64,000 bases of DNA from a virus. This document shows, piece by piece, positions 6,445 to 64,000 of this stretch. The stretch is from IMG/VR virus record IMGVR_UViG_3300024231_000003, positions 23,709 through 87,708 of that record. The stretch is one strand, 5' to 3'. Numbering within the stretch: the first letter of the stretch is position 1; every line of letters starts with the position of its first letter. Below the pieces are notes generated by a model that made no database searches, was not told where the DNA came from, and saw only the letters and a list, made by a program, of their open reading frames with translations. The translations under genes and the position numbers were made by a program.

Positions 6445-6882
6445 ATGAAATATATAACCACATTAATAATTGCATGCTTAATTGCAACAAGTACATTTGC
6501 TAAAGAGCCAGTAATGGTTGAATACGATTTTCCTATTACTAGAGTTATTGATGGAGACACAGTGGCATTTGAAGCAAACTTTTTGCCAGACCCATTCAAG
6601 AAAGAATTAAGTATTCGTGTGTATGGTGTTGACACTCCTGAAAAAAGCTGGAGAGCAGAATGTGATAAAGAAGCACAATGGGGTGCAGAAGCTAGTGCAT
6701 TTACAAAAAACATGATTAACGAATCACGTAACATTAAAATTGCTATTTACAAATGGGACAAATACGGTGGACGTGTGTTAGGTGATATTATACTTGATGG
6801 ATTTAGTTTACGTCAACTATTAATTGAAAATGGCTATGCACGTGAATATTACGGAGACAAGAAAGAATCATGGTGTGACTAA
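6445..6882 (+). CDS. Secreted staphylococcal-nuclease-like (SNase) endonuclease
   Basis: A 145-aa protein with a Sec signal peptide (cleavage near TFAKE) followed by one SNase-type OB-fold domain. The calcium and catalytic signatures are present: VIDGDT, RVYGVDTPE (Arg and Glu of the active site) and GGRVLGDI (second Arg). Such nucleases cut DNA and RNA in the periplasm or outside the cell. In a phage it could degrade host or competitor DNA or salvage nucleotides. It follows tRNA-Asp by 21 bp and has a good GGAG site 9 bp before the ATG. Confidence 0.9.
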   Translation: MKYITTLIIACLIATSTFAKEPVMVEYDFPITRVIDGDTVAFEANFLPDPFKKELSIRVYGVDTPEKSWRAECDKEAQWGAEASAFTKNMINESRNIKIAIYKWDKYGGRVLGDIILDGFSLRQLLIENGYAREYYGDKKESWCD

Positions 6883-8077
6883 TCCCAAAGATGAAAAAGG
6901 ATTTTGTGTAATACCATTTACACAATCGTTCATACAAGATAATCGATCCAGGCTATGTTGTGAAAGTAAACAAACAGACGTATTTTATTTAACAGAAGAT
7001 GTAAATTTTTCTGATATATGGAATAATGATTTTCATCAGAGCATTAGAAAACAAATGTTATCAGGTTCTGGCGTATTGCCAACATGTTGTGAAATTTGCA
7101 CAATGGATGAAGAATCTGGCGAAGAAAGTATGCGCCAATTTCAAAACAAGTATCAAAACGCAAGCATTGCTGATTTTAATAGTGTAATAGCTCCCCCTCC
7201 GATTAGTTACGATATTAGAGCAAATAATAAATGCAATCTTGAATGTGTAATGTGTGATGGACGTCTTAGTACAGCTATCCATAAAAGACTTAACGACTAT
7301 GGTTTAACTGATGATGATGATTTTCCTGTTACATTTGGTGAAGAGTGGAAACAACAAGCATATATTATTGACCATGTTAAAGAAAATAGTAGCAATATTA
7401 CTAGTATGAGATTTGCTGGAGGTGAGCCTTTTTTAATGCCAGAAGTATTAGACATGCTTGAATATTTTGCCAACACTGGAGATAGCAAAAATATTGATTT
7501 ACAAATTCTTACTAATGGTACTACAGTGAGAACTAAATGGTTTTCCAATATACTTACCAAATACAAAAAAGTAAGATTAAAAATTAGTATAGACGGCATT
7601 GGTGAAACTGGAGAGTATGTAAGATACCCTTCTAAGTGGAGCGTAGTTGATAAAAATATACAACGTCTACTAAAAATATCAAAAGAAAACGACAATATAA
7701 ATGTTGATCTAGTGCCAGTAATTCATTTGCTTAATGCATTAGAAATGGATAAAGTTATAGAGTATGCAGCAATCAATGAAGTTGATATGGCATTAACACC
7801 AGTATATACAGCAAGCAGTAATTATCATATAACAGCTGATTTACTTACTAATGATCTTAGAAAGATAGCACATGATAAAATGATGAATATGCTAGACAAA
7901 TATCCAGATATGTCATTTAGTGTAGGTAAAGGATTTATAACAAATTTGTTAAACATGAAGCAACGAACAGACCCTCGACCAATACAGCAACTTAATCAAG
8001 TTGTAAAATATTGGGATAGTCATAGAGAAGTTAAGTTCCTTGATCGATACCCATATTTGGATTATCTAATTAAATAG
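6875..8077 (+). CDS. Radical SAM protein with N-terminal Cys-rich extension
   Basis: About 400 aa. The N-terminus carries the FCVIP...CCES element and a CCEIC motif (residues about 11-75), which probably bind an auxiliary cluster as in SPASM/twitch proteins. The radical SAM motif CNLECVMC has Cys at 120, 124 and 127 and is followed by the FAGGEP SAM-binding strand and the TNGTT and SIDG motifs. The GTG at 6875 was chosen because paralogues in this window begin a few residues before F-C-x-x-P; TTG 6824 or ATG 6830 would extend further into the nuclease gene. Substrate unknown. Confidence 0.85.
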   Translation: MTNPKDEKGFCVIPFTQSFIQDNRSRLCCESKQTDVFYLTEDVNFSDIWNNDFHQSIRKQMLSGSGVLPTCCEICTMDEESGEESMRQFQNKYQNASIADFNSVIAPPPISYDIRANNKCNLECVMCDGRLSTAIHKRLNDYGLTDDDDFPVTFGEEWKQQAYIIDHVKENSSNITSMRFAGGEPFLMPEVLDMLEYFANTGDSKNIDLQILTNGTTVRTKWFSNILTKYKKVRLKISIDGIGETGEYVRYPSKWSVVDKNIQRLLKISKENDNINVDLVPVIHLLNALEMDKVIEYAAINEVDMALTPVYTASSNYHITADLLTNDLRKIAHDKMMNMLDKYPDMSFSVGKGFITNLLNMKQRTDPRPIQQLNQVVKYWDSHREVKFLDRYPYLDYLIK

Positions 8078-8081
8078 TAAT

Positions 8082-10513: not shown

Positions 10514-11270
10514 TTATATCCTTTATTATAAAGTTGGTCCAGTTTTTATTTGTATCAGGTCCTGCATGTTCACCATCTCTGCCCTTATCAACATAATACT
10601 CTTCTTCAAGTGTAGGCCATGATTTTATAGGTATAGTTGTATCTATCCCTTGTGGTCTATCAAAACAATGTACTTCTACATTATGTAACTTCCATGTATT
10701 AATAATAGATTGCTGCATTAAATATGATTTAGTCATGTAGTTACTTTCATAGTATACATATCTTTCCCAAAATTCTATGATGTCATTACCAGACCAGTGA
10801 CCAAGTTGTTGTATCTTATCATCTTTATATATCAGATATCTTGAAGGACATGGGAACATAATTATAACTTTTTTTGGAATATAATTAGACTGTATTAGGG
10901 CATGTGTATTATGGTGTAAAGTATCAACACTTGCACCAGACACACCCATATTTATGGTAGTATTATTTGTGATCTGTTCATATATATTTGGAATAGTATG
11001 CTTGTTATGCACGCCTTGACCAAATATATGACTGCATCCAAGAAATAGTACACATTCTTTCCAGTCAAATTCTTGTAATTCCTTTGTTCTATATCCGTGT
11101 GAATTAAGTCTATAATTCAGGTCCTGGGAATTAAAATATCTCCAATCAGTGCCTAGCTCTTTCTTTGTCTTAATCCAATTTGATTTGTGGTCATCATGTA
11201 ACCATTCGAGTGTAAGATTTGGAGTTTTTTTCTTATTTTCTAAATTTAAAATATCTATTTTATTAAACAT
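10506..11270 (-). CDS. SGNH/GDSL-family hydrolase-like protein
   Basis: 254 aa. The block I nucleophile appears as LGCSHIFGQG, the block II/III region as NMGVSGASVDT, and the catalytic Asp/His pair as DGEHAGPD near the C-terminus. SGNH enzymes act on ester groups, often acetyl groups of glycans. The ATG at 11270 is used because AAGGA lies 9 bp upstream; a TTG one codon earlier is an alternative. The gene lies between radical SAM and oxygenase genes in one minus-strand operon. Confidence 0.72.
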   Translation of the reverse strand: MFNKIDILNLENKKKTPNLTLEWLHDDHKSNWIKTKKELGTDWRYFNSQDLNYRLNSHGYRTKELQEFDWKECVLFLGCSHIFGQGVHNKHTIPNIYEQITNNTTINMGVSGASVDTLHHNTHALIQSNYIPKKVIIMFPCPSRYLIYKDDKIQQLGHWSGNDIIEFWERYVYYESNYMTKSYLMQQSIINTWKLHNVEVHCFDRPQGIDTTIPIKSWPTLEEEYYVDKGRDGEHAGPDTNKNWTNFIIKDIND

Positions 11271-12369
11271 CAAAATGATCCTTCCAATTTAATCCTCTGA
11301 TATTATTCAGTGTTTCAAAATAGGACAACATCTTTTCTCTTAACTTCCCCCGTTCATCTTGGCTACTATTGAATTTGACTATTTTTGTCAATTTTTTATT
11401 ATTTAAATCTAGTATTGTTTGTATTATTTCAGGACTGGCTAAAAATGGTTGTAAGTGCTTTGGTTCATAAACACTCATGCCTGCCCAATGTATATCCCGC
11501 TCATCACACCATTCTATTAATTTAGGTAGTGACTGCAAACTAGCAGCCTGGACACTAGTTTCAACATTAACTTTAATATTATCGTATGATATCATTTTAT
11601 CTACATTGCGTTCTAATTTGTCCCATTTGATAGGCCATCTTATAAAATCATTAGCTTTTCCATATCCATCTATACTAACATTTATTCGTACATCTTCAAA
11701 TTTAGATAGTACATCTTGTAGTTTTTTTCCAAAGCTGCCCCCGTTAGATGTGATTTGTATAATTGAATGGTTTTTATTTTCTTGTTGTGCTTCTAGTACA
11801 ATTTCTAAAAAGTCACTTAACAATCCTCTAACAGTAGGTTCACCACCAGCAAATCTTATTTTACGTGCTTTAGATGCTTCTACTGCAATAGTTCTAAATT
11901 TAGCAGGATCGTCAAACCAATTAACTTCTGGAGAATGATGTTGTGGTCTAAATATTTTAAGTTGTGGATTTTTATTGTGTTCTTCTTCCATCAAACTACT
12001 ATTGTAACTACCACACATAATACATCCAGCATTGCATATATTACCAAATTTAATCTCTGTGTCGAATAAACTAAACTCGCCTTCATTAGTATATCTCTGA
12101 TCGCCGTTATATATCATTCCGTCAATATTGGCTTTTTCATCTAGGACACATTCATTGCATCCTTGGCCAAACCTATTGTTTTTCATATCATTCATTAGTT
12201 TTTTATAAAAATCACTATTTAGATAATCTTGTATTGTATTTTCAGATACTAGAACTTGATCAGGCTGCTCTTGCCAAGCACAACATGGACGATAAACGCC
12301 TGTACTACTGATACTAATATGATTTACTGGCCATTTACACTTCATAAACATATTTATACTTGTTGACAT
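11263..12369 (-). CDS. Radical SAM protein (twitch/SPASM-like)
   Basis: 368 aa. An N-terminal element C-K-W-P...RPCC and a CNEC motif (residues 11-74) precede the radical SAM motif CNAGCIMC (Cys 112, 116, 119). FAGGEP, TSNGG and SIDG follow in the order expected for the partial TIM barrel. It leads the minus-strand operon. The first ATG (12369) has no clear ribosome site, and ATG codons at 12351 and 12345 are alternatives. Substrate unknown. Confidence 0.85.
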   Translation of the reverse strand: MSTSINMFMKCKWPVNHISISSTGVYRPCCAWQEQPDQVLVSENTIQDYLNSDFYKKLMNDMKNNRFGQGCNECVLDEKANIDGMIYNGDQRYTNEGEFSLFDTEIKFGNICNAGCIMCGSYNSSLMEEEHNKNPQLKIFRPQHHSPEVNWFDDPAKFRTIAVEASKARKIRFAGGEPTVRGLLSDFLEIVLEAQQENKNHSIIQITSNGGSFGKKLQDVLSKFEDVRINVSIDGYGKANDFIRWPIKWDKLERNVDKMISYDNIKVNVETSVQAASLQSLPKLIEWCDERDIHWAGMSVYEPKHLQPFLASPEIIQTILDLNNKKLTKIVKFNSSQDERGKLREKMLSYFETLNNIRGLNWKDHFDV

Positions 12370-12642: not shown

Positions 12643-12733
12643 GGACAGGTGGGTGAGTGGCTTAAACCAGGGGATTACTAATCCTCCGAACGTTCATAGC
12701 GTTCCGTGGGTTCGAATCCCACCCTGTCTGCCA
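12643..12733 (+). tRNA. tRNA-Ser with ACT anticodon
   Basis: A 91-nt class II tRNA with long variable arm (GAACG/CGTTC). Acceptor GGACAGG/CCTGTCT has a G-U first pair, anticodon stem GGGGA/TCCTC with loop TTACTAA, T-arm GGGTTCGAATCCC, encoded CCA. The anticodon reads ACT where bacteria normally use GCT for AGY serine codons. Confidence 0.85.
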
Positions 12734-12739
12734 AAGTTT

Positions 12740-12814
12740 TGGAACGTAGCATAATGGTAATGCACCGCTTTTTGGTAGCGTAGAGTATAGGTTCGAGTCC
12801 TATCGTTCCAGCCA
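12740..12814 (+). tRNA. tRNA-Gln (TTG)
   Basis: Acceptor TGGAACG/CGTTCCA, anticodon stem CCGCT/AGCGT (outer pair mismatched) with loop TTTTGGT (anticodon TTG), T-arm GGTTCGAGTCC, encoded CCA. Confidence 0.88.
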
Positions 12815-12819
12815 AGTTT

Positions 12820-12894
12820 GGTCCCTTCGTCTATCGGTTAGGACGCCAGGTTTTCAACCTGGAAAGACGGGTTCGATTCCCGTAGGGACTACCA
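12820..12894 (+). tRNA. tRNA-Glu (TTC)
   Basis: Acceptor GGTCCCT/AGGGACT, anticodon stem CCAGG/CCTGG with loop TTTTCAA (anticodon TTC), T-arm GGTTCGATTCC, encoded CCA. Confidence 0.95.
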
Positions 12895-12998: not shown

Positions 12999-14084
12999 AT
13001 GATAAAATTAGATACAGTACACGTTGAAATAACTAACAGATGTAATGCAATGTGTCCAGGATGCACTAGGCAAGATCCTGATACTGGAAAGTTACTCGAT
13101 TTTTTTCATACAACTAATGAAGTTGATTGGTCATTATCTGACTTTAAAAATATACTTCCTCCTCATATTGTTAAAGATACAAACATATTTTTTGGAGTAA
13201 CAGTTGATGAGCCATTAATGAATCCAAACTTTTTAGATATTGCAAAATATGTAATTGCGTCTGGAGGTAATATTGAACTTGATACTAATGCAGGTGCTGG
13301 AACAGAAAAAACATGGACTGAATTTGGTAGATTATCACGTGACAATCCTGGAAGAATAAGAGTTGGATTTTCAGTAGATGGATATGAAGATACAAATCAT
13401 ATATATCGTGTTAATGTCAAGTGGAATACAGTTGTAAGAAATATGAAAGCATTTGCACAGAATTGTAAAGATGCAACTTGGGTATATCTAGCATTTGATC
13501 ATAATGAGCATGATATACCAAAGGCAGAAAAACTAGCAACAAAAATGGGTATCAAATTTAAAGTACGTGCAAATACTCGAAATATTAAATCTTGGGTATC
13601 AAATACTACTATTAAAAAAGATAAAAAGATAGTTAAAGAAACAAAAATAGTCAAAGTAGACTCTGATAGTAAATTTAAACATAGCGACTTTGAAAAGATA
13701 AAAAAATTAACAAGTCGTAAATCTGACGAATATACTAAAAGTGAACTTGACACCATATCTTGTTTATTAATAGATCAACAAGAAGTTATGATTGATTGGT
13801 CAAAGAGAATGTGGCCATGTTGTTGGTGGGGAGATGCATATCTTTCAAAAAACAAAAGATGGATGAAAAACATTATTTCTCAATATGGAGATGATTGGAA
13901 TCGGGTAGATTTAACATCAATAGATAAAATACTAGATCATGAATATTATGCTAGTATATTAGGTGGTGAAGCTAGATATGATAATACTAGTAAATTCTAC
14001 TGTGGTGATAGTTGCTTTAAGCACTGTGGTGATAAAGGCAAAAGAAATTACGAATACTTTGATAAAGATGGCAAATCAGTCTAG
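12999..14084 (+). CDS. Radical SAM protein (SPASM-like)
   Basis: 361 aa. The radical SAM motif CNAMCPGC (Cys 15, 19, 22) is at the very N-terminus. A C-terminal Cys-rich tail (WPCCWWGDA, YCGDSCFKHCGDKG) looks like an auxiliary [4Fe-4S]-binding SPASM domain, used by peptide- and glycan-modifying enzymes. Residues about 205-240 are a Lys-rich insertion. Its architecture resembles the protein at 62906-63940 and differs from the F-C-x-x-P subfamily in this window. It stands alone after tRNA cluster 2. Confidence 0.85.
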   Translation: MIKLDTVHVEITNRCNAMCPGCTRQDPDTGKLLDFFHTTNEVDWSLSDFKNILPPHIVKDTNIFFGVTVDEPLMNPNFLDIAKYVIASGGNIELDTNAGAGTEKTWTEFGRLSRDNPGRIRVGFSVDGYEDTNHIYRVNVKWNTVVRNMKAFAQNCKDATWVYLAFDHNEHDIPKAEKLATKMGIKFKVRANTRNIKSWVSNTTIKKDKKIVKETKIVKVDSDSKFKHSDFEKIKKLTSRKSDEYTKSELDTISCLLIDQQEVMIDWSKRMWPCCWWGDAYLSKNKRWMKNIISQYGDDWNRVDLTSIDKILDHEYYASILGGEARYDNTSKFYCGDSCFKHCGDKGKRNYEYFDKDGKSV

Positions 14085-14209: not shown

Positions 14210-16084
14210 ATGAATATATATTTAACACAAATTAATAACACCATAGCAGATGCAATCTTTCTGCCTCTTTCTGTTGGCTACGTGTGGGAATATGTTAAAA
14301 CTCAAAAAGACTTGAAGAAATGTAAATTGGGTGGTATCATATTTGAAAGAGATACTATAGAAAATTATATGGACCAGATAAAAGACCCTGATGTAATAGC
14401 AATTAGTACATATGTGTGGAACTGGACAATTAGCCAAGAACTAGCTCGTGCTGTTAAGAAGAAATATCCAAAATGCTTAATTGTTATGGGCGGACCACAA
14501 GTACCATTCAAGAAGCAATGGCTTGAGGAAAATAGAGATATGTGTGACGTTATTGTTACATATGCTGGCGAGCGTACATTTGCAGAAGTGCTTAGAGGAA
14601 ACTTAACAGCGCCAGGTATTATGAGTGAACACGGATACATTCCTCCCAAGCCAGATAGAGATATATCAGATATTCCAAGTCCATATTTAAGTGGACTAAT
14701 GGATAGTTTAATGGATCCTGATAAGAACTATAGTGCTATTGTAGAAACAAATAGAGGATGTCCTTATAGTTGTACATTCTGTGATCAAGAAGCAGTGTAT
14801 TATAACAAGATTGCCAAGTTTGATTATGATAGAGTTATTGCAGAAATAGATTGGGTAGTCAAACATAAAATTGACTTCTTATATTTTGCTGATAGTAACT
14901 TGGGAATATTTGATAGAGATGTAGACTTTATGAGATATATTGCAAAATGTAGAAACGAAACTGGATACCCTAGAAATATCGATTACTCAACAGCAAAGCA
15001 ATCTCCTGATCGAGTAACAGAACTTGGAAAAATATTAAATCAAGAAGCAGGCATTACACGTGGTATGACAATTGCACTACAGAGTATGAATCCTGATACA
15101 CTTAGTGCAATTAAAAGAATAAACGCTGCTAATGATAAACTAAAGAAAACTATAGATGATTTTCATGCAAATGGTGTTGATAATTATTGTGAGCTTATAT
15201 TAGGATTACCAGAGGAAAGTTTTGACAGTTGGGTTAAAGGTACTGGTGAAATACTTGACATAGGCAGTGATCACGCATTACAAATGCACCCACTAAGTGT
15301 TGTGCCTAACACTCCATTTATGGATGAAGATTATGTACAAAAATATGGTTTAAAATATACACCCACTCAAGCACCTGCAGGAGGAAATACGTATCCTGGT
15401 GATAGTAATGGTGAGATTGATTACATTTGCTATGAGACAAATACAATGACTCGTGATGAATGGATAGATGCATACTTCTTTACAAAAGGAATAGTTATAC
15501 CTCACCATTATCATGGATTTAGTCAAGTGTTAGCAACCTATCTAAACAGAGAGCTAGGTATTCCTTTTATTGAATACTATACCTTTTTGTTTAATTGGAG
15601 TAAAGTAAGTAGTGGAATTTTACACTCAGAATACATGGCACATACAAATAGTGTTCGTGAAAGCTTATTTGAAAATAAAACTTGGGGTCGCCCTGTAGAT
15701 GATACTGATAATTTCCACCTACAAGATAATGGTGCAACTGCATCTTGGTTATATGAAAATATAGATGCAGTATATAATGAGTTACTTATGATATGCAGTG
15801 TTAAGTGGGAAATAGATGTATCTGAAGTACTAAGATACAACAAGCACATACTAGATAGATATAATGAAACAACTCAAGATGCTGAATATGATAAAAATTG
15901 GCATGGATGGTTTAATAATAATGAAACATTAAAAGATGAAAATACTACTGTATCTATTACCACACGTAAAGAATATACAAGTAAATTAGATCACGCCAAA
16001 CATTTATTTTGGTATGGTAGAAAAGCCAAACGTTGCTTCTTAGCAGCAAATGAAAGGAAAACACAATATGATACGAGTAGCTGA
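14210..16084 (+). CDS. B12-binding-domain radical SAM protein
   Basis: 624 aa. Residues 1-150 form a Rossmann-like cobalamin-binding domain (DVIAISTYVWNW, IVMGGPQVPF) without an obvious D-x-H-x-x-G, so cobalamin if bound would be base-off without a His ligand. The radical SAM motif CPYSCTFC has Cys at 184, 188 and 191, followed by FADSNLGIF and LQSMNPDTL of the Elp3-like core. A C-terminal region of about 230 residues has no recognised domain. Class B enzymes methylate unreactive carbons or do ring contractions. The gene has a structured leader and is followed by a pseudo-peroxiredoxin overlapping by 17 bp. Confidence 0.85.
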   Translation: MNIYLTQINNTIADAIFLPLSVGYVWEYVKTQKDLKKCKLGGIIFERDTIENYMDQIKDPDVIAISTYVWNWTISQELARAVKKKYPKCLIVMGGPQVPFKKQWLEENRDMCDVIVTYAGERTFAEVLRGNLTAPGIMSEHGYIPPKPDRDISDIPSPYLSGLMDSLMDPDKNYSAIVETNRGCPYSCTFCDQEAVYYNKIAKFDYDRVIAEIDWVVKHKIDFLYFADSNLGIFDRDVDFMRYIAKCRNETGYPRNIDYSTAKQSPDRVTELGKILNQEAGITRGMTIALQSMNPDTLSAIKRINAANDKLKKTIDDFHANGVDNYCELILGLPEESFDSWVKGTGEILDIGSDHALQMHPLSVVPNTPFMDEDYVQKYGLKYTPTQAPAGGNTYPGDSNGEIDYICYETNTMTRDEWIDAYFFTKGIVIPHHYHGFSQVLATYLNRELGIPFIEYYTFLFNWSKVSSGILHSEYMAHTNSVRESLFENKTWGRPVDDTDNFHLQDNGATASWLYENIDAVYNELLMICSVKWEIDVSEVLRYNKHILDRYNETTQDAEYDKNWHGWFNNNETLKDENTTVSITTRKEYTSKLDHAKHLFWYGRKAKRCFLAANERKTQYDTSS

Positions 16085-21893: not shown

Positions 21894-21896
21894 CTA

Positions 21897-55943: not shown

Positions 55944-56648
55944 ATGCCCTCACCTTTTAAGCAACCTTGGCACTTTGACAATAATCGTCAAGACAGTGAA
56001 GGTGAATATTCTAAAATTTTTGGAGTATTTACAGGTGATTGGACTAAAGACATTTTAGAAGCTCGTGCTATTGGTGTAAACAAGCAACTATATAATGAAC
56101 AGCGATATGAACATGCTGCAAATAACAAAAGCGAAAATCATATAGAAGAAGATAAAGAAAACCCAGATGGTAAACCATCATCTGTAATGTTTCGCAAAAT
56201 AAATTTTGATAAATATCCAGAACAGTGTAGTACCTTTAACCGTATTACTTCGTTTTTACAATTTAATACAGCAGAAAAACTAACACAAAAATTTAACGAT
56301 CAATATCCAAATGATCAACTCATGTGGCACATTGATAACTTACCAGGCAATCCACGCAAGGAACGAGTTATTGATAATCCAGAGTTTCAATACCAACATT
56401 CAAATAAAATTAGAATTTTAATTATGTTAGAAGATTGGGAACCAGGACAGTTGCTACAATTTGGAAACCGCATGTATACCCAATGGAAAGCCGGAACAGC
56501 TATTACATGGGAATGGAGTACATTGCCACATGCTACCTGGAATGGTAGTTGGAAAAAAAGACCCGCACTCCAACTAACAGGAAGTGCTAGTGATGCAACA
56601 TGGGACATTATTAATAATGGCTCTGCAGAAACTATTTACAATATTTAG
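55944..56648 (+). CDS. 2OG-Fe(II) oxygenase-like protein (paralogue group A)
   Basis: 234 aa. Candidate ligands H129-x-D131 (MWHIDNLPG) and H196 (TLPHATWNG), with R206 for 2OG. The central motif LIMLEDWEPGQLLQFGNRMY...WKAG is the closest match to the 18843 protein. In both places a radical SAM gene follows at once, a repeated gene pair. Confidence 0.72.
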   Translation: MPSPFKQPWHFDNNRQDSEGEYSKIFGVFTGDWTKDILEARAIGVNKQLYNEQRYEHAANNKSENHIEEDKENPDGKPSSVMFRKINFDKYPEQCSTFNRITSFLQFNTAEKLTQKFNDQYPNDQLMWHIDNLPGNPRKERVIDNPEFQYQHSNKIRILIMLEDWEPGQLLQFGNRMYTQWKAGTAITWEWSTLPHATWNGSWKKRPALQLTGSASDATWDIINNGSAETIYNI

Positions 56649-56656
56649 GAATTACA

Positions 56657-58087
56657 ATGAGTGAACAAAAAAAATTACCAAGCGATACATTTTGTATTTT
56701 ACCATGGATTCATTTATCAACAAGACCAGACGGCAGTATGAGAGTATGTTGTACCGCTAACGCTAGTGCTGTTGGTGCAACAAATGATAAAGTACATGGC
56801 GGCAGAGTTGGTATTGTTAAAACAGAAGATGGCAAGCCGGCTAATCTAAACACAACTGATTTAAATACTAGTTGGAATAATACATATATGAGAAGTGTAA
56901 GGCAACAAATGCTTGCAGGTGAAAAACCAGCCAGTTGCTTAAAGTGCTATAAAGAAGAAGATGCAGGACATGTTAGTAAACGTCAGTGGGAAACTGCTTA
57001 TTGGCAACGTGATGGTATTGATGTAGATGAGTTAGTTGCACAAACATTTGAAGATGGCAGTACAACTAGTAAGTTACGTTACATTGATATTCGTATGGGT
57101 ACAAAATGCCAACTAGGTTGCGTTATGTGTAGTCCACATGATTCAAGTGGTTGGATCAAAGACTGGCAAGGTATGTATCCTAAAATTACAAACGAAACTT
57201 TAAAAGAGACAATGGTTTGGGCTAACAAAGGTAAAGAGTTTGGTGCAAGTTATAATTGGCATAAAGATAATCCAGTATTTTGGGATCAGTTTTATGCACA
57301 GATTCCCTATATGCGTCAGCTATATTTTGCAGGTGGCGAAAGTACTGTTATTGAAGAACATTATGAGATCTTAGATAAAGTTATTGAAATGGGATATGCA
57401 CACCAGATTGAAGTACGTTACAATTCAAATGGTATTGAGCTTCCTGATCGTTTACTAGAACAATGGAAACATTTTGAAAAAGTAAGATTCCATTATAGTA
57501 TTGACAGCATTGGCGAGATGAATGATTATATTCGTTACCCAAGTGAATGGTCACATCAACTTAAAATGTTTGAACGTTTAGATACTAAAACATCAAACAA
57601 TGTAGAAATTACAATTGCATGTGCCGTTAACGCTCTTAATATTCATTACATTCCAGACTTCCTAAAGTGGAAGCTAACTGAGAGTGGACTAAAGAAAACA
57701 AATATGTGGCCATTTGGTGCAGGTGGTATTAACTATCACTTTGTATACTGGCCTGGACATTTAAATGTTAAAGTACTACCAGATGAATTCCTAGACAAGA
57801 CTGAAGCCAAGTACGAAGAATTTATTGAATGGTGGAAAGAAAATTGGGAACTTGGTGTTCCTAGTTGGCACAAAGGCAAAGTATCATATGATGATTGGGA
57901 AAATGCAAGCTATGGAATCAAACGCTTACGTGGTATGATTAATTTTGCACGTAGTGAAGATTGGTCAAGACGACTTCCAGAATTTAGAGAATATATTAAC
58001 AAATTAGACGAATTGCGTGGAACAGACTTCCGTGCTACTTTCCCAGAAATGGGTTACTTATTAGACGAACCAGAGGACAAAAAATGA
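56657..58087 (+). CDS. Radical SAM protein (F-C-x-x-P/twitch subfamily)
   Basis: 476 aa, the longest of the subfamily. N-terminal FCILPWIH...VCCTAN and SCLKC (residues 13-97), radical SAM motif CQLGCVMC (Cys 151, 155, 158), FAGGES in place of FAGGEP, and SIDS. The C-terminal 130 residues have an extra Trp-rich helical region. It pairs with the upstream oxygenase-like gene and overlaps the nucleosidase gene by 4 bp. Confidence 0.86.
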   Translation: MSEQKKLPSDTFCILPWIHLSTRPDGSMRVCCTANASAVGATNDKVHGGRVGIVKTEDGKPANLNTTDLNTSWNNTYMRSVRQQMLAGEKPASCLKCYKEEDAGHVSKRQWETAYWQRDGIDVDELVAQTFEDGSTTSKLRYIDIRMGTKCQLGCVMCSPHDSSGWIKDWQGMYPKITNETLKETMVWANKGKEFGASYNWHKDNPVFWDQFYAQIPYMRQLYFAGGESTVIEEHYEILDKVIEMGYAHQIEVRYNSNGIELPDRLLEQWKHFEKVRFHYSIDSIGEMNDYIRYPSEWSHQLKMFERLDTKTSNNVEITIACAVNALNIHYIPDFLKWKLTESGLKKTNMWPFGAGGINYHFVYWPGHLNVKVLPDEFLDKTEAKYEEFIEWWKENWELGVPSWHKGKVSYDDWENASYGIKRLRGMINFARSEDWSRRLPEFREYINKLDELRGTDFRATFPEMGYLLDEPEDKK

Positions 58088-58638
58088 TATATGTATTAGT
58101 AGCTCTAAAAGGCGAATTGCCAGAGCATAATTTAGACCCAGAAACATACAAAGTATGGTATACAGGAGTAGGCAAAGTTAATGCAACTATGTTTGCTACC
58201 ATGGCTTGTATTCAACGTGATTGCACCGCAGTTATTAATTATGGTACAGCAGGAGTAATAAACAAAGATCTTATTGGCAACTTAAACAAGGTTGCAGTAG
58301 TAAGACAGCGTGACATGGATGGACGTCCACAAGCAGAGCTAGGTACAACACCTTTTGAAGAAACAGGTATCCAAGGTGATATTGTTACAGCGAATAGCGG
58401 TGTGGTATTAAGTACAGGTGATAATTTTGTAATGGAAACTCCAGAATTAGAAAGCGATCTAGTTGATATGGAAGGATACGCAATTGCAAAAGTATGCAAA
58501 CACTTTAGTAAATCTTTACTAATGTTAAAGTATGGTAGTGATATGGCAGATAGTGATGCTGCAAAAACTTGGGAAGAAAACCAAGCAGATGGTGCTGAAC
58601 TGTTTTTGGAGCAGCTTAAAGCATTAGAAAATGTCTGA
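58084..58638 (+). CDS. 5'-methylthioadenosine/S-adenosylhomocysteine nucleosidase-like
   Basis: 184 aa, shorter than cellular MTAN (about 230). The PNP-superfamily motifs are TGVGKVNAT, NYGTAG, VDMEGYAIAKV (ribose-binding Met-Glu) and the catalytic Asp region YGSDMAD. The family cleaves adenine from MTA, SAH and 5'-deoxyadenosine, the last a by-product that inhibits radical SAM enzymes. It lies between two radical SAM genes with 4- and 8-bp overlaps, which strongly suggests a support role here. Confidence 0.85.
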   Translation: MIYVLVALKGELPEHNLDPETYKVWYTGVGKVNATMFATMACIQRDCTAVINYGTAGVINKDLIGNLNKVAVVRQRDMDGRPQAELGTTPFEETGIQGDIVTANSGVVLSTGDNFVMETPELESDLVDMEGYAIAKVCKHFSKSLLMLKYGSDMADSDAAKTWEENQADGAELFLEQLKALENV

Positions 58639-59896
58639 TAAATCAGGATTTTGCGCACTACCATTTGTACAATACAGTACATATAATGGTGGGCGTTATA
58701 GACTTTGTTGTATGGCAAAGGAACCAGAAACTCTTGTTGACCAAGAGAAGCTAGGTATACAAGGAACATGGAACCACGATTACATTAAAGATGTGCGTAG
58801 ACGCATGGCAGAGGGAGAATGGCTGCCTGAATGTGTTGAATGCCAACACTTGGAACGTAACGACATCGTAAGCTCACGACAGTGGGAAAATGAAGTGTGG
58901 GAAGACGTAATTAACGAAGTAGTGGCTGATGCTTCGGTTAACGATTGGGAGGTTGAACAACCTTTACAATTTGATTTCAGGCTTGGCAATTTGTGCAATT
59001 TACAGTGTCAAATGTGCAACAAAGAAGCATCACATTTAGTGAGCGTAGAGAGAGCAACAATGGTCAAAAGCGGACTCGGGGTGGACCACTCTGATTGGCA
59101 TGGACAAATTGCAGACAAGAAGCGGGCTCTTCTTCAACCTGGAATAGACTGGACGAGCTTCAAGGACATGATAAAAAAAGCTCGAAAAATAAAACTAATA
59201 GGCGGGGAGCCAACTGTAGCAGCAGATATGTTTAAACTGCTGGACATCGCCGTAAACTCCGGACATGCCCATCACATCGAACTTAGTTTTTATACTAATA
59301 TTACTAACATGCAGGACCGTTGGCTCGACCAGCTAAGTAAATTCGAAAAAGTGATCGTAAACTGTAGCTTGGAGGGCATGGAGGACATGAATGATTATTT
59401 GCGTCCACCCTCCAAGTGGTCTTCTGTTTGGAAGAACTTTGATAAGCTAGTTAAGTTTACAAATACCAAAGAAGGCAAAAATATTAAAGTAAGAGTAACC
59501 ACTGTTAACCAAGTTACTAATGCATTGCACATTGCAGACTTCTGGCGCATGATGCACGAATATCAAATGAAAAGCGATAGGGGTATTGGTATGAGTTCTA
59601 ATCAACTTATTGAACCACACTACTACAGTATGGCACACGCTCCTGAATGGCTTAAAGAAGAGCAACGTAAAGGTATACTAGAGTTCCTAAACAGTATTGA
59701 CAATAGTCCACATTTTGAGGATTATGAAGAACCACTGATGGAAATTGTTAATTTTGGATTAGATCCAGAACATCAATACAGTCCTGTTATTATGAAACAG
59801 TATGTTGAAGTAACAGAAAATTACGATATATTCCGTGGGCATGATGTTATGACAGTAGCCCCAGAATTTAAACGTATTAAAGACGATTTAGATTAA
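58631..59896 (+). CDS. Radical SAM protein (F-C-x-x-P/twitch subfamily)
   Basis: 421 aa. N-terminal FCALPF...LCCMAK and ECVEC (residues 8-71), radical SAM motif CNLQCQMC (Cys 122, 126, 129), LIGGEP and the SLEG strand. The gene's first two thirds (about 58780-59440) use more GC-rich codons than anything nearby, then return to the local AT-rich style, which suggests a recombined segment. It converges with the minus-strand gene at 59877 (20-bp overlap). Confidence 0.87.
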   Translation: MSDKSGFCALPFVQYSTYNGGRYRLCCMAKEPETLVDQEKLGIQGTWNHDYIKDVRRRMAEGEWLPECVECQHLERNDIVSSRQWENEVWEDVINEVVADASVNDWEVEQPLQFDFRLGNLCNLQCQMCNKEASHLVSVERATMVKSGLGVDHSDWHGQIADKKRALLQPGIDWTSFKDMIKKARKIKLIGGEPTVAADMFKLLDIAVNSGHAHHIELSFYTNITNMQDRWLDQLSKFEKVIVNCSLEGMEDMNDYLRPPSKWSSVWKNFDKLVKFTNTKEGKNIKVRVTTVNQVTNALHIADFWRMMHEYQMKSDRGIGMSSNQLIEPHYYSMAHAPEWLKEEQRKGILEFLNSIDNSPHFEDYEEPLMEIVNFGLDPEHQYSPVIMKQYVEVTENYDIFRGHDVMTVAPEFKRIKDDLD

Positions 59897-60947
59897 TTTC
59901 TTTAAAATTCATGTAACGCTTTTCTTCAGTATATTTAAATAATATTTCTTCAGCATTAGCAATTTCAGGATATGCTTCTGGTTTTCCAAATACTGCATCT
60001 GCGACTTGCAATTTATTTTCTTCAGTAATACGATGATACTCTTGTGCATCTGTATTCTTTTTAAAGTCAAGTGAACTACCAGTGTATTCCTTGCACACAG
60101 TGCTGTCAGACAGAGCGTCTAAGCTAGATGGCATATAGCCACTTAATACTACTATCACACGCTTATGGTGTTTGGCAGCATACCTGCATACTTTTTTAAG
60201 TGTATCCTCGCAACGCCATCTGGAGTGATAAATGTTTTTTCCACCTAAATTATCAATCCAAGCTTCTGTTAAGTTACCCATACGTAGCCCTAACTTTGCA
60301 TAATGTTGATCATTATGGAAGTTATTATAAATTACATATGCAGTATCATTGTTACTATCTGGTTGTGCTACTGTTTTGTGCTTACGTTTTCCAACTCTAA
60401 ATAATACACTTCTCTTTTCAGTATGTAACTCAGGAACGTCATGCCAACTAAAAGGAGTTGCCTGTAAACTATAAAACATATTAGGTTCACAATTTAATCG
60501 TTTGTTTCCACTTGCATCTCTGTTAAGCAAACGAACACCTTGGTCACTACTATCCATATATATTTGATTAGTAATTAACCATCTAAAATCTTTTAGGTCA
60601 TTGTGTATACCAAGACTACTTCCTGGTAAGTCGTAATGGCAATTTACATAATGATGATCGTATGAATAAACCTTTCCAAGCGAAGCAGTCATTACTTCTG
60701 ATAATACATTATCTCTTATATATTCTACTATTTCTTGATCATACGCTAATTCAGGAGTTTCAGGCCAGGAATCCAAAGGCGCACTAAATGTACCTTCCAA
60801 TGCACTCTCATGTTCTGGAACTTCTGGATTCATACAATAATCTTTGATGTACTGAACTGGATATTCTTCATAATAACGTTTGAAAAACTTTTCAGGTAAA
60901 TAATTTTCACTAATATGGTATTGGAATGGTATATTGTATTCTTTCAT
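59877..60947 (-). CDS. 2OG-Fe(II) oxygenase with extra C-terminal domain
   Basis: 356 aa. Residues about 1-190 are a P4H-like oxygenase: H115-x-D117 (LGIHNDLKD), H169 (FSWHDVP), and basic R179/R184 for 2OG. Residues 190-356 form a second domain (AYVIYNNFHND, RVIVVLSGYMPSSL) with no family I recognise. It touches the upstream oxygenase-like gene by 1 bp. Confidence 0.75.
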   Translation of the reverse strand: MKEYNIPFQYHISENYLPEKFFKRYYEEYPVQYIKDYCMNPEVPEHESALEGTFSAPLDSWPETPELAYDQEIVEYIRDNVLSEVMTASLGKVYSYDHHYVNCHYDLPGSSLGIHNDLKDFRWLITNQIYMDSSDQGVRLLNRDASGNKRLNCEPNMFYSLQATPFSWHDVPELHTEKRSVLFRVGKRKHKTVAQPDSNNDTAYVIYNNFHNDQHYAKLGLRMGNLTEAWIDNLGGKNIYHSRWRCEDTLKKVCRYAAKHHKRVIVVLSGYMPSSLDALSDSTVCKEYTGSSLDFKKNTDAQEYHRITEENKLQVADAVFGKPEAYPEIANAEEILFKYTEEKRYMNFKEINLNRL

Positions 60948-61780
60948 TATAGGCCTCTAATTCTTTCTTTCATACATAATTCTGGAAACTGTAAACTTTC
61001 ATTTAAGATATCTGCTTCGAAACATTGTAGTTTTGTACCAAATACAATTTGATGTGTTATCCACTGTGCATTAAAGAACCATACATCACCTGGATCGAAT
61101 GTAATATAATGAAGAGGGTGGTGGAATTGATCCCATTTCTCTTCATTCCATACGCAACGGTTGCGCATTTCAGTAATAAATTTGTGTATGTCATTTTTAT
61201 CTAATTCCTCTAAGTTAAATTGTTCTTTATATTGATTGTACATTTGCTCCAAGTCTGGTCCAAATGTCAGTACACGTGGACGCTTTTTATCTAATTGAAC
61301 AAACATACGCATTTGTTGTTCATTACCAGTGTGCGCCTCATCTAACTCATCCAAGTGTAGTTTGTTTTCCACTAGTGTATTATATCTGTGAGATAACATA
61401 CGCTCATTTGTTTTGTACTTTGGAAATATTTTATCAAATATCTCATTCCAACCCGTAGTAGCTTGTTTATGTTTCTTGTGAAACTTGTCAATTTGTTCCT
61501 CACTCCAGTTACGTTCATCACGTAGTCTGTCACGCTTTTTAATATGACTGTTATACCAAGGCATAATCCACTTGTTGTCTGGAATAGTCCAATCTGGTAA
61601 ATTATCATAATAGTCGTAGTCTAAGTTTGGAATAGTTAAATTTTTAATAACTACAGGCCAACCACTCTCAAAACACTTGTATATTTCGTCATTATGTGTT
61701 ATACTTTCGATATCACTGGCATCAAACTGATGTACTGTGAAATCCTGAGCGGCCTTTGAATCTAGTGCAATTCTAGTCAT
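60947..61780 (-). CDS. 2OG-Fe(II) oxygenase-like protein
   Basis: 277 aa. A candidate H142-x-D144 (NKLHLDELDEAH) and distal H243 (QWITHQIVFG) after the strand DPGDVWFFNA suggest a cupin-type iron oxygenase, although spacing is looser than in the other members. It heads the two-gene minus operon opposite the amidinotransferase gene and shares its palindromic promoter. Confidence 0.58.
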   Translation of the reverse strand: MTRIALDSKAAQDFTVHQFDASDIESITHNDEIYKCFESGWPVVIKNLTIPNLDYDYYDNLPDWTIPDNKWIMPWYNSHIKKRDRLRDERNWSEEQIDKFHKKHKQATTGWNEIFDKIFPKYKTNERMLSHRYNTLVENKLHLDELDEAHTGNEQQMRMFVQLDKKRPRVLTFGPDLEQMYNQYKEQFNLEELDKNDIHKFITEMRNRCVWNEEKWDQFHHPLHYITFDPGDVWFFNAQWITHQIVFGTKLQCFEADILNESLQFPELCMKERIRGL

Positions 61781-61841: not shown

Positions 61842-62906
61842 ATGAAACCAGTAAACGCATGGAGTGAATTCCAGCCACTAAAGAAGGTTGTACTAGGCGC
61901 ACCCTTTCCACCAGAGACATTTGATTGGCATAAAGATGAAGAAACACGCAATGTTATGCGCCAAATTTTTGAAGAGACTGCAGAAGATATAGCAGAGCTA
62001 GAAAAGATTTTAGTTGAGCATGGTGTTGAAGTAGTACGCCCAAAAAATATCTTTACTATTACAGGTGAAGAACAAATACAACTACCATGGATGCATTGTG
62101 GTTTTCCTAATCACCCACTAATGCCACGTGATACACTTATGCCATACGGTAATACAATTTTTGAATGTTTTACTGGTGGTGACAATCGTTACTTTGAGAA
62201 TCTTGCATATTACGATCATTGTAGTAAATGGTTTAGTGAAGGTGCGGATTGGGTTAGTATGCCAGGTGTAATGATTGATAGTAAATCATATGAAGATTAT
62301 GAGAACAAAGGCAGAGTATTATATCACGCAGCTAATATGATTAAATGTGGAGACACAGTATTGTTTAGTCAGACATGGGACGAAGATAATAAAAAAGGCA
62401 AAGGTACTAATCTTGGTAAGCAATGGATGAAGCGTGAACTATCACAGCGTTATCCAGGTACTAAGTTTTTAGATATTCCAGTTGGCGGACATGCTGATGG
62501 TAAAATTGCACTACTCAAGCCAGGTGTACTGATGACATGGAATGCAAAATGGGTTCCAGAAGAAATGAAAAATTGGACTATTATTGAAGTTAACGATAAT
62601 CATGAAATGCCAGAAGATTTCTTAAACACACGTAAACGCCGCTTCTATAAAGACTATGTAGAAAAATGGTTGGGACATTGGGTTGGATATGCAGACGAGA
62701 GTGTATTCGATGTTAACGTATTATCGCTAGATGAAAAAACTGTTATCTGTACAGGACGTAACGAAGCTGCATTTGCAGAAATGAGAGCTAATGGAATTGA
62801 GCCTATTGTATGGCGTTTTCGTCACCAGTATTTCTGGGATGGCGGCATTCATTGTTTAACAAGTGATGTACAACGTGAAGGCGATTGTGAGAGTTATATA
62901 AGCTAA
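61842..62906 (+). CDS. Amidinotransferase-family protein (glycine amidinotransferase-like)
   Basis: 354 aa. The family's catalytic residues are visible: Asp in MPRD, His in PVGGHADGKIALL, and nucleophile C338 in GGIHCLTSDVQREG. These enzymes move an amidino group from arginine to an amine such as glycine. The GIHC-x-T-x-D-x-x-R-x-G end is standard. It overlaps the next radical SAM gene by 1 bp, so the two products probably serve one pathway. Acceptor amine unknown. Confidence 0.86.
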   Translation: MKPVNAWSEFQPLKKVVLGAPFPPETFDWHKDEETRNVMRQIFEETAEDIAELEKILVEHGVEVVRPKNIFTITGEEQIQLPWMHCGFPNHPLMPRDTLMPYGNTIFECFTGGDNRYFENLAYYDHCSKWFSEGADWVSMPGVMIDSKSYEDYENKGRVLYHAANMIKCGDTVLFSQTWDEDNKKGKGTNLGKQWMKRELSQRYPGTKFLDIPVGGHADGKIALLKPGVLMTWNAKWVPEEMKNWTIIEVNDNHEMPEDFLNTRKRRFYKDYVEKWLGHWVGYADESVFDVNVLSLDEKTVICTGRNEAAFAEMRANGIEPIVWRFRHQYFWDGGIHCLTSDVQREGDCESYIS

Positions 62907-63940
62907 TGCTAGACCAAATGAAATGGGCAAGTACTGTAAGAGAGATACAACTTGACGCAACGTCATATTGTAATGCTGGTTGTGGAACATGTGTTCGCTT
63001 TAAAGTGGGATCATGGGACTTACACCAGTCTATAGTACTTGAACATTTTGACATGGATACATGGACAAAGTTAGTAACTAAGGATATTAAGGATACCAGA
63101 ATAGATACTATATTCTTTAATGGTAATTGGGGAGATGCATGTATGCACCCCAAACTAATAGACATGGTTAAGTTAGCTTTGGAAGAAAATCCAAAACTTG
63201 GAATAAAAATATCTACTAATGGTAGTTTGCGTACCACTAAGTGGTGGGAAGAATTAGCACGTGTACTTGGCAAAAGAGGACATGTTATTTTTTGTATAGA
63301 AGGTGTTGATCAAGAAACACATGGTAAATATAGACAGAAGACATTTTATAAAAAAATTATAGAAAATCTTACAGCATTTAATAACGCAGGCGGAAATTCA
63401 GTTTGGATGATGACTGCATTTGATCATAATATCCATCAAATTGATCAAGCACGAGAATTAGCCAAACAACTTGGATGTGCCAGATATACTACTAGACGAA
63501 GTCATGATGATAATATTGTTTTTGAAACACATAATGTAACTACTGATAATGTAAAAAAAGAACATATTGGAATTACAAGTTTTGGTCCAGTTCATTTCTC
63601 GCCAGTAGATGCTAAACAGTTTCCAGATCAAGTATCAACACAATGTTCATTCTACAAAATTGGTAGTATACAAATAGACCCACACGGAACAGTATGGCCA
63701 TGCTGTTATATTAGTCAATACCGTTGGGGCATGGAAGAAGATGGTAAAGATTTAAAAACTCCAGAACTAAATGATAATGCACCATTTCTTTCTGAGAAAT
63801 TTAATTTAAAAAATAAAGCACTTACTGACATATTACAGGATGTATGGTATGCCAACAAATTAGCAGGTGCAATCAATACTGCTAGTTGGGACGTTTGTAC
63901 ACGAAACTGTAAAATAAAACCAGTAGTTGAGGAAATATAA
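62906..63940 (+). CDS. Radical SAM protein (SPASM-like)
   Basis: 344 aa. The radical SAM motif CNAGCGTC (Cys 22, 26, 29) is N-terminal, FNGNWGD takes the G-G-E-P position, STNGS follows, and the tail has WPCCYIS and CTRNC Cys as auxiliary-cluster ligands. Same architecture as the protein at 12999. It is co-translated with the amidinotransferase and followed at once by another radical SAM gene. Confidence 0.86.
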   Translation: MLDQMKWASTVREIQLDATSYCNAGCGTCVRFKVGSWDLHQSIVLEHFDMDTWTKLVTKDIKDTRIDTIFFNGNWGDACMHPKLIDMVKLALEENPKLGIKISTNGSLRTTKWWEELARVLGKRGHVIFCIEGVDQETHGKYRQKTFYKKIIENLTAFNNAGGNSVWMMTAFDHNIHQIDQARELAKQLGCARYTTRRSHDDNIVFETHNVTTDNVKKEHIGITSFGPVHFSPVDAKQFPDQVSTQCSFYKIGSIQIDPHGTVWPCCYISQYRWGMEEDGKDLKTPELNDNAPFLSEKFNLKNKALTDILQDVWYANKLAGAINTASWDVCTRNCKIKPVVEEI

Positions 63941-64000
63941 TGAATATGGATTGGGCCAGAGTTGTTAATAATTTGCAAGTTGACTTAACTAGTTATTGTA
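63940..64000 (+). CDS. Radical SAM protein, 3' truncated by window edge
   Basis: Only 20 codons are visible, starting one base into the upstream stop (TAATG) with GAGGAAA before it. The peptide aligns with the start of the 62906 protein (MDWARVVNNLQVDLTSYC versus MKWASTVREIQLDATSYC), so the last Cys is the first ligand of a C-x3-C-x2-C motif. It is probably a tandem duplicate. Confidence 0.7.
   Translation, partial: MNMDWARVVNNLQVDLTSYC

Follow-up and report, generated by a model that had tools for sequence, protein, structure and literature searches.

A conserved gene core within a radical SAM-rich phage array, its partial counterpart in Bdellovibrionota and a possible multi-step pathway

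Phages rich in radical SAM (rSAM) genes have been published before. According to the available part of one report, the Campylobacter group II phages CP220 and CPt10 carry 11-12 rSAM genes, five of them clustered with a glycine-amidinotransferase-like gene and with two NDP-sugar-transferase-like genes alongside (PMC2853527). The T4-like TARA_ERS488813_N000010, of 183 kb, has 12 rSAM genes together with an A-type carrier and PaaD, and is presented as an Fe-S inventory; the portion of the source at hand describes neither a core nor SAM recycling nor a bacterial counterpart (PMC5332604). Similarly, the accessible text on Lake Baikal virus VP_139 gives a T4-like virus of 35 % GC with rSAM, methionine adenosyltransferase and MTA/SAH nucleosidase genes, and attributes this gene set to methylotroph hosts, with their PQQ and SAM cycle (PMC7678222). 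The uncultured phages examined here resemble CP220/CPt10 in combining many rSAM genes with an amidinotransferase, the amidinotransferases being 26 % identical; however, the best N_Twi match in CP220 is 3e-9, and that phage has no MetK and no PNP_UDP_1 match. Going by the descriptions, they also share many rSAM genes and, in 10 of 21 records, an Fe-S carrier gene with TARA_ERS488813_N000010, and a T4-like character, 35 % GC, and rSAM, MetK-type and nucleosidase genes with VP_139. The core and the bacterial link set out below we did not find in the literature.

The window, i.e. the whole 64,000-nucleotide stretch analysed, spans bases 23709-87708 of an 87,708-base IMG/VR virus record. It contains nine complete rSAM genes and a tenth that is truncated at the contig end:

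6824-8077, plus strand: accessory twitch rSAM; NF033640 6.8e-79, best relatives 24-32 %
11263-12369, minus strand: accessory twitch rSAM; NF033640 1.5e-66, 59 % in relative G002, median 25 % over 18 contexts
12999-14084, plus strand: accessory rSAM with N-terminal motif; TIGR04317 7.9e-11
14210-16084, plus strand: accessory B12-binding rSAM, KedN5-like; PF02310 and PF04055 above cut-off
19498-20760, plus strand: accessory twitch rSAM; NF033640 1.3e-90, best relatives 22-29 %
42144-43040, plus strand: QueE-like rSAM; phrog_2076 4.5e-53, no tie to the core
56657-58087, plus strand: rSAM A, twitch-type (N_Twi_rSAM), core; NF033640 1.6e-125, cut-off passed
58631-59896, plus strand: rSAM B, twitch-type, core; NF033640 5e-85, in 20 of 24 contigs it follows the nucleosidase
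62906-63940, plus strand: rSAM with N-terminal motif, nearest TIGR04317 (60.8 bits against a cut-off of 380); PF04055 32.7 bits
63940-64000, plus strand: partial rSAM, first 20 codons

The count of ten in the initial annotation was borne out by PF04055, NF033640, PHROG 2076 and, for the cut gene, by G002, in which the N-terminus of the next rSAM (G002_26307; MDWARVVNNLQVDxTSxC) matches the 20 codons, so that the partial gene is taken as real. When the whole record was searched with PF04055, nine places were found, namely 6824, 11263 (minus strand), 12999, 14210, 19498, 56657, 58631 and 62906 in the window and an eleventh rSAM gene of the record, L009:3134-4201, outside it; the same nine are the only ones among 99 open reading frames of at least 100 aa to contain CxxxCxxC. 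Hence, the C-x3-C-x2-C motif ascribed to every listed gene holds for the nine PF04055 genes of the record but not for QueE, which has C-x3-C and then a third Cys some 60 residues beyond it, as do its relatives in G002, G005 and G011, and which reaches none of the NCBIfam QueE cut-offs. The gene originally placed at 6875 is indeed an rSAM gene; 6875 is, however, a GTG inside the open frame that begins at 6824 and may not be its start. An N-terminal cysteine element was correctly noticed in five proteins, as 6824, 11263, 19498, 56657 and 58631 all have C-x2-P...CC and C-x2-C in addition to CxxxCxxC, and the three genes said to have the motif near the N-terminus correspond to the complete 12999 and 62906 and the cut 63940. 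Five of the nine complete proteins (265.8, 225.1, 304.4, 419.4 and 286.0 bits) pass the curated whole-protein cut-off (170 bits) of NF033640 (N_Twi_rSAM), a family for which we know of no established reactions. In related IMG/VR records the number of rSAM genes rises to 20 (within 91 kb) and 25 (within 184 kb); several of the viral records appear to be duplicates of a single virus (G028/G029, G016/G022). Nine named large phages of 156-490 kb gave 0, 5, 4, 4, 0, 6, 1, 2 and 11 (CP220) rSAM matches; this sample is not random, having been drawn from earlier hits, a number of which had been to rSAM, nucleosidase or amidinotransferase genes.

The best-conserved gene of the window is A (median 88 % identity), which has 23 further viral relatives at 82-90 % identity; its product scores 25.6 bits with PF04055 for one stretch and 31.3 as a whole protein. 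Among 24 contigs examined, all 15 that have the four core genes keep the order A (56657), nucleosidase-like gene (58084), B (58631) and amidinotransferase (61842), and pN/pS values of 0.13-0.20 for A, and 0.11-0.20 for A and B together, show strong purifying selection. The remaining core genes and their conserved neighbours are:

55290-55940, plus strand: F2, upstream of A and resembling sulfotransferases by eye; nothing matched in Pfam or PHROG; median identity 65 % in 22
55944-56648, plus strand: F7, upstream of A and resembling 2OG oxygenases by eye; nothing matched in Pfam or PHROG; falls into a single family together with 18843 and 54072
58084-58638, plus strand: MTA/SAH (5'-deoxyadenosine) nucleosidase-like, core; overlaps A and B
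59877-60947, minus strand: F16, 2OG-oxygenase-like by motif only (HxD...H); no Pfam match
60947-61780, minus strand: F13, Fe(II)/2OG-oxygenase-like by motif only (H142-x-D144 ... H); no Pfam match; median identity 79 % in 18
61842-62906, plus strand: amidinotransferase (HsvA/SxtG/AGAT-like), core; phmmer against PDB: HsvA 3.6e-27, SxtG 7.5e-19, AGAT 2.4e-15

The 58084 product has a PNP_UDP_1 domain (PF01048, 55.3 bits against a cut-off of 25.1) and matches MTA/SAH nucleosidases in the PDB (best 6.8e-7), but is named nucleosidase-like rather than MtnN because it misses the NCBIfam equivalog cut-offs (91.6 vs 129 bits for NF004168; 56.6 vs 169 for NF004079). Its E11, D128, E130 and D153 are invariant in 26 contexts (three duplicates included, up to two gaps allowed) and may correspond to the MtnN catalytic residues, judged by the E. 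coli positions. The gene is present in 23 of the 24 contigs, the exception (L026) stopping at A, and in this record it overlaps A and B by a few bases each, leaving no room between them for another gene. The amidinotransferase has no Pfam or NCBIfam match, yet belongs with the arginine amidinotransferases in aligning GGxHC and H with HsvA; these Cys and His residues, which we take to be catalytic, are present as Cys338 and His217, both invariant in 18 contexts. Neither B nor the amidinotransferase was found in L031 despite available space, and no amidinotransferase was found in L034 within the >6 kb 3' of B.

Around this core lies a flexible layer consisting of 6824, 11263, 12999, 14210 and 19498. 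Among the sequences compared, no relative of 6824, 12999, 19498 or 62906 exceeds 50 % identity, and 11263 and 14210 have such a relative in G002 only; these absences are weak evidence, since just three long relatives, themselves fragments, span the accessory-gene region. With PF04055 (cut-off 29.5 bits), 12999 is borderline, scoring 27.5 bits as a whole protein and 28.3, or 29.9 with in-frame neighbours, in the genome search. The B12-binding and rSAM domains of 14210 are present, although NF033712 (KedN5 B12-rSAM C-methyltransferase) gives 189.5 bits against a cut-off of 700.

Orthologs of A at 50-65 % identity occur in metagenome-assembled contigs, mostly of Bdellovibrionota, where they often adjoin glycosyltransferases and X and Y, which are orthologs of further rSAM genes of these phages. 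In a sample of 144 Bdellovibrionota genomes, A was found in seven, all of which also have X and Y, and the three adjoin one another in five; the probability of the A-X and of the A-Y overlap is 3.6e-11 each if genomes are independent, a value that overstates significance because the seven may be related and five were already known from an earlier search. Twitch rSAM genes are numerous in the genomes that carry A. Identity to the bacterial relatives is 54-67 % for X and, in the 144-genome sample, 40-46 % for Y. Across 21 loci with A orthologs, X occurs in 14, Y in 15, and the two domains of a protein family designated F29 in 11 each (either in 15); none has the amidinotransferase, and the nucleosidase appears solely in L088, a contig that looks phage-like by eye. 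The bacterial and phage sets thus share relatives of A, X and Y along with F29 domains, but A, X and Y are dispersed in phages G005 and G011. X is present in G002, G005 and G011, and Y in the latter two; X, Y and F29 are all absent from the 87.7-kb record itself and, judging from the relatives, would be expected beyond its ends. In L017 and L034, F29 lies between the nucleosidase and B. The best Foldseek matches of its first domain, in which D59 is invariant in 14 cases, are the glycosyltransferases SunS, ThuS and RmlT and the nucleotidyltransferase HddC, and the 50 VIA matches listed (Z 9.7-11.8) are largely glycosyl- and nucleotidyl-transferases, TM-scores being low as the greater part of the model has no match; the poor C-terminal half (much of it below pLDDT 50) was not used. 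Profile comparison gave no support for GT2 (0.5 % probability). GT2 proteins make up 12 of 100 neighbours of A orthologs, a raw share rather than an enrichment, and 12 of the 100 neighbours stem from three possibly phage contigs.

The array is accompanied by genes for the supply of SAM and for redox:

25993-26760, plus strand: ferredoxin/flavodoxin-NADP reductase-like; PF00175, PF00970; NF008178 6.9e-36, below cut-off
44956-46059, plus strand: MetK, S-adenosylmethionine synthetase; TIGR01034 417.6 bits, above the cut-off of 309.4; PF02773 2.3e-57

MetK is found in 17 of 21 array records versus none of four comparison records, PNP_UDP_1 in 19 versus one, and Fe-S_biosyn in 10 versus none, the set of 21 leaving out G025, another array record above 70 kb; across phage records at large, MetK is found in 135 of 50,697. 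Only G002 among the three long relatives has a counterpart of the reductase-like gene, and a ferredoxin, which had no match among the window proteins scanned, occurs in G005. 5'-Deoxyadenosine is an inhibitor of rSAM enzymes, as stated in the part of the source available (PMC8102628).

The initial annotation took the density of rSAM genes to imply a multi-step pathway. The order of A and B, the selection on them and the co-occurrence of A, X and Y are as expected of a single pathway run by several enzymes, which supports that claim for the core but does not extend it to all ten genes, given the poorly matched accessory ones. We give about an even chance to the array being a phage-borne multi-step rSAM pathway that tailors a sugar-linked product, supplies its own SAM and disposes of its by-products; that all of the genes act together, as well as the class of substrate, the product and its use, we infer. 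Its centre in these phages would be A, the nucleosidase, B and the amidinotransferase. The twitch and other rSAM enzymes would act on one common substrate through carbon-centred radical chemistry, assisted by 2OG-type oxygenases and amidino transfer, and the most likely product would be a surface glycan, or else a small glycosylated molecule, belonging to the infected cell or the virion. SAM would be provided by MetK, and the nucleosidase would clear 5'-deoxyadenosine and SAH that might otherwise inhibit the enzymes, while the flexible rSAM genes could vary the product from phage to phage.

That the rSAM enzymes instead cross-link or epimerize a ribosomal peptide or virion protein (a RiPP, or a PQQ/mycofactocin-like cofactor), with glycosyl and amidino transfer as tailoring, is unlikely, though it is the most probable of the rivals. 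Twitch/SPASM rSAMs are typical peptide maturases, SunS and ThuS, the best hits of F29, glycosylate peptides, and several NCBIfam maturase models gave matches below their cut-offs. Additionally, SkfB, anSME and a sactipeptide thioether enzyme are the best Foldseek matches of A (model pLDDT 89.5; the BFVD returned mainly other phage rSAM proteins), although its substrate cannot be read from the fold because sugar- and peptide-enzyme scores are tied (BlsE 11.5, viperin 11.3, DesII 11.3, a sactipeptide rSAM enzyme 11.2, anSME 11.1), with mainly the barrel (about 138-436) aligned and the N-terminal twitch region barely covered. Against this, A has no further domain matched in Pfam or NCBIfam, the overlaps of A, nucleosidase and B leave no space for a precursor, and the suggested search for a short precursor gene came back empty: clustering of small ORFs (18-125 aa) from 23 phage loci and 20 A-ortholog loci yielded no family in at least three of the 20, though very short or divergent peptides could escape, and the families in at least eight of the 23 are located 5' of A in the examples listed, several being antisense frames of upstream genes. 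F119 (71-81 aa), which is adjacent to both F29 and Y in contigs that are phage or phage-like, was rejected as a precursor, as it is confined to phages and possibly phage contigs and is absent from other A loci.

Somewhat less probable still are unconnected auxiliary rSAM genes with separate roles in a flexible host-recognition island. This would suit the accessory genes, which have no close ortholog or one in a single relative, as well as the mixing of phage and bacterial sequences in the rSAM tree (21 label changes; a fast tree with many long branches, used solely for the clades of A, X and Y), and rSAM cassettes distinguish two islands of pelagimyophages, in the part of the report available (PMC7029224). 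However, the strongly selected core with its fixed order and the A-X-Y linkage in bacteria argue against it; independent acquisition with unrelated neighbours clearly does not apply to A and B and may hold for part of the set. Hypermodification of DNA or tRNA by the rSAMs and QueE is very improbable. QueE is part of the 7-deazaguanine route, a GTP cyclohydrolase (phrog_2197) is also in the window, both have relatives in G002, G005 and G011, and 12 tRNA genes were found; yet QueE lies 14 kb from the core with no link to it seen, and the neighbours of A orthologs include glycosyltransferases, QueC-like proteins making up two of the 100 and no QueE being among the 25 families listed of 76. The by-eye impression of 30400 as TGT/DpdA was dropped, there being no Pfam or PHROG match.

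For the pathway with a sugar-linked product, the conservation of A at 82-90 % across 23 further viral records and the linkage of the same three rSAMs in bacteria define a small testable set, namely A, X, Y and the glycosyltransferase-like protein. More tentatively, these phages may be a clade of large phages with a self-supplied rSAM factory for a novel product class, able to synthesize SAM and remove 5'-deoxyadenosine and equipped, in some of its members, with an Fe-S carrier and ferredoxin; the A-X-Y heart would be common to the phages and to Bdellovibrionota, relatives of predatory bacteria that the phages may infect or from which they may have taken the pathway. If true, this would mean that a multi-step radical pathway, complete with a cofactor economy of its own, can reside in a phage, and the puzzle of rSAM-rich phages, posed by Campylobacter phages in 2010 and Tara in 2017, would become a biochemical question.

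The virus record, 87,708 bases long, ends within a gene, and the window (record positions 23709-87708) contains nine complete radical SAM (rSAM) genes plus the first 20 codons of a tenth, with an eleventh lying outside the window. The cut gene is genuine, since the 20 encoded residues correspond to the start of the next rSAM protein in the related phage record G002. The ten rSAM genes of the initial annotation are supported. Likewise upheld is the grouping of five rSAMs by N-terminal cysteine elements ahead of the core motif, as the same five proteins, all with C-x2-P...CC, C-x2-C and CxxxCxxC, pass the cut-off of NF033640 (N_Twi_rSAM; NCBIfam, twitch domain-containing rSAM). The protein of gene 14210 (genes are named by start position in the window) combines B12-binding and rSAM domains. 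The QueE-like protein (42144-43040) had been counted among the C-x3-C-x2-C proteins, which proves incorrect; it lacks CxxxCxxC and has C-x3-C with the third cysteine about 60 residues on, a split motif kept in three long related phage records, themselves fragments (G002, G005 and G011). A GTP cyclohydrolase gene lies near it, at 35761. Two tRNA clusters occur at 5521-6423 (nine genes) and 12643-12894 (three genes), and rSAM genes 6824 and 12999 begin less than 0.5 kb past them. Elsewhere in the window are a glycine-betaine-type substrate-binding protein and membrane permease (20910-22787; also in G002, at 72-78 %), a fusion of a cytidylyltransferase-like domain with a mannose-phosphate-isomerase-type cupin (32848-33615) with an adjoining class-I-aldolase-like gene at 33612, and an 899 aa protein with subtilisin-type motifs discerned by eye (37675-40374; relatives at 46-58 % in G002 and G011).

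The rSAM array is a conserved core within a flexible shell, as judged from the order, identity and pN/pS of the core set against flexible rSAMs without close relatives. The core consists of two twitch-type rSAMs, A (56657) and B (58631), the nucleosidase-like gene between them (58084) and an amidinotransferase (61842). Across 24 contigs (27 contexts, three being the same contig read twice), the nucleosidase-like gene follows A in 23, the remaining contig (L026) ending at A; B comes next in 20, and 15 of the contigs then carry the amidinotransferase, the order being constant wherever the genes are present. B and the amidinotransferase are not universal, because contig L031 carries neither, despite about 9 kb of sequence past the nucleosidase. 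The pairs A/58084 and 58084/B overlap. Among window genes with at least three comparisons, A is the most conserved (median identity 88 %, versus 79 % for the amidinotransferase and 77 % for MetK). The pN/pS values of A (0.13-0.20), B (0.11-0.20), the amidinotransferase (0.14-0.22), MetK (0.20-0.24) and the nucleosidase (0.31-0.41) come with pS at 0.52-0.80, close to saturation. For 6824, 12999, 19498 and 62906, none of the sequences compared exceeds 50 % identity, and for 11263 and 14210 only G002 provides such a relative; for genes far from A, just three long fragments are informative on presence or absence. Thus, the view of the ten rSAMs as one multi-step pathway is supported for the core and, among the sequences compared, not for 6824, 11263, 12999, 14210, 19498 and 62906. 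Some rSAM paralogs in related records may be decaying, given that four N_Twi copies among the matches listed (G014, G016, G022 and G028) contain an internal stop; no PF04055 (Radical_SAM) match in the record itself does so.

Searched against IMG/VR, A finds 23 loci at 82-90 % identity. Records reached through A contain up to 20 PF04055 matches (G002, 91 kb), with 18 each in G014 (79 kb), G016 (99 kb) and G005 (110 kb). The amidinotransferase leads to others, among them G028 (25 in 184 kb), G035 (23 in 243 kb), G027 (21 in 138 kb), G026 (18 in 205 kb) and G045 (8 in 192 kb). No match occurs in four of the 25 amidinotransferase-reached records, all four being short and their amidinotransferases distant (25-34 %). 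G028 and G029 (same coordinates) and G016 and G022 (constant offset among the matches listed) are apparent copies of one virus. Nine named large phages, drawn from earlier matches rather than at random, have 0 to 6 matches, except for CP220, whose 11 are consistent with its publication (PMC2853527). The DnaB of the window phage is closest to that of jumbo phage PA5oct (50 %), which has no PF04055 match and hence does not share the array.

The array is accompanied by genes for SAM supply and putative by-product removal. MetK, which scores over its NCBIfam cut-off, occurs in 17 of 21 array records (22 exceed 70 kb, but G025 was left out), a PNP_UDP_1 domain in 19 and an A-type Fe-S carrier in 10. 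The corresponding counts in four comparison records, CP220 and three whose amidinotransferases are distant, are 0, 1 and 0. MetK is present in 135 of 50,697 phage records in a collection weighted to other hosts. A ferredoxin-NADP-reductase-like gene lies in the window, and G005 carries a ferredoxin and an Fe-S carrier protein; in that record, the ferredoxin, an M17 leucyl aminopeptidase and an IscA-like carrier share one region (L044:14249-16266 and L044:10439-10822). The 58084 protein is termed nucleosidase-like because it scores below the equivalog cut-offs, and it presumably acts on 5'-deoxyadenosine, which, with MTA and SAH, is described as a product inhibitor (PMC8102628). An adenosylmethionine-decarboxylase-like gene (L009:5493-5885, below cut-off) could also give rise to MTA, in which case the nucleosidase could serve MTA removal instead.

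A bacterial counterpart of the array is found in Bdellovibrionota. A scan of genome contigs gives at least 74 loci, of which 21 among the matches listed carry A relatives at 50-65 % identity; 16 of these are MAG contigs labelled Bdellovibrionales, Bdellovibrionia, Oligoflexia, Bacteriovoracaceae or Halobacteriovoraceae, and some of the 21 lie on contigs of 100-940 kb. Two further phage rSAMs, X (of G002, G005 and G011) and Y (of G005 and G011), have orthologs in 14 and 15 of the 21 loci, and protein family F29 occurs in 15 (first domain 11, second domain 11). The amidinotransferase is in none of the 21 and the nucleosidase in one, L088, a phage-like contig by eye; L059 and L071 may also be phage contigs. 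Among 144 genomes from the phylum of the Bdellovibrionia MAG G057, A (best match 52-64 %) is in seven, X (57-67 %; split into two pieces in G164) in eight and Y (40-46 %, full length) in eight. All three are present in the same seven genomes, being direct neighbours in five, with only A and X adjoining in the other two; the co-occurrence probability is 3.6e-11 per pair if genomes are independent, although kinship is possible and five of the seven had already been found by the first scan. In a quick tree, phage A falls inside the A relatives of bacterial MAGs. At E 0.001, each of the 19 genomes reached through A loci (those behind L059-L078 and L088; mostly Bdellovibrionota MAGs) contains 4-42 N_Twi matches. 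Every one of these genomes has one or more copies that exceed the cut-off, and all copies among the matches listed pass it; 14 control genomes have matches at E 0.001 and none over the cut-off. N_Twi_rSAM is expanded in these relatives of predatory bacteria.

As for what the array makes, a sugar-linked product is favoured, based on glycosyltransferase neighbours, the fold and position of F29, the amidinotransferase, and the genes past the record end. Among 100 of the 148 neighbours in the 21 A-relative loci (12 of the 100 from L059, L071 and L088), there are 12 GT2, four Glyco_transf_7C, three Asp_Arg_Hydrox and two Radical_SAM matches. The first domain of F29, which has one invariant Asp, has a predicted nucleotide-sugar-transferase-like fold, with SunS, RmlT and HddC among its Foldseek matches and, for residues 1-148, IspD- and MobA-type nucleotidyltransferases among VIA rows at Z 9.7-11.8; in phage contigs L017 and L034, F29 sits between the nucleosidase and B. 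The amidinotransferase is alignable to HsvA, SxtG and AGAT through the Cys and His taken as catalytic. Past the point where the record ends, G002, G005 and G011 encode more rSAMs, an Asp_Arg_Hydrox protein and an aminotransferase-like protein (a weak match, 0.0017, below cut-off). A peptide product is possible, as SunS and ThuS, both fold matches of F29, have peptide substrates and peptide enzymes are among the best Foldseek matches of A; however, a search for a precursor peptide family found none, and the fold of A does not discriminate between the two. Family F119 is a conserved protein of 71-81 aa encoded next to F29 and Y on contigs that are phage or phage-like, with a distant copy in L167. 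It is possibly a carrier or substrate.

F119 genes in phage or phage-like contigs
L040:15953-16198, F119 protein
L051:10686-10931, F119 protein
L059:4507-4722, F119 protein
L071:4467-4688, F119 protein
L088:3409-3633, F119 protein

Phages rich in rSAMs are already in print. CP220/CPt10 have 11-12 rSAMs and, like the phages of this array, an amidinotransferase (PMC2853527); a T4-like Tara genome has 12 rSAMs (PMC5332604), pelagimyophages have rSAM cassettes (PMC7029224) and Campylobacter phage CC_R7 has five rSAMs (PMC12398825). Baikal VP_139 has an rSAM, MetK and a nucleosidase, gene kinds also present here (PMC7678222). For the A-nucleosidase-B core and for A-X-Y in Bdellovibrionota, searches limited to open-licence PMC papers showed nothing. 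Finally, relatives of the amidinotransferase (33-37 %) and an rSAM at 28 % occur in Marine virus AG-345-D19, whose contigs (L055 and L056) derive from one sorted seawater cell, a single-cell origin that could point to a host.
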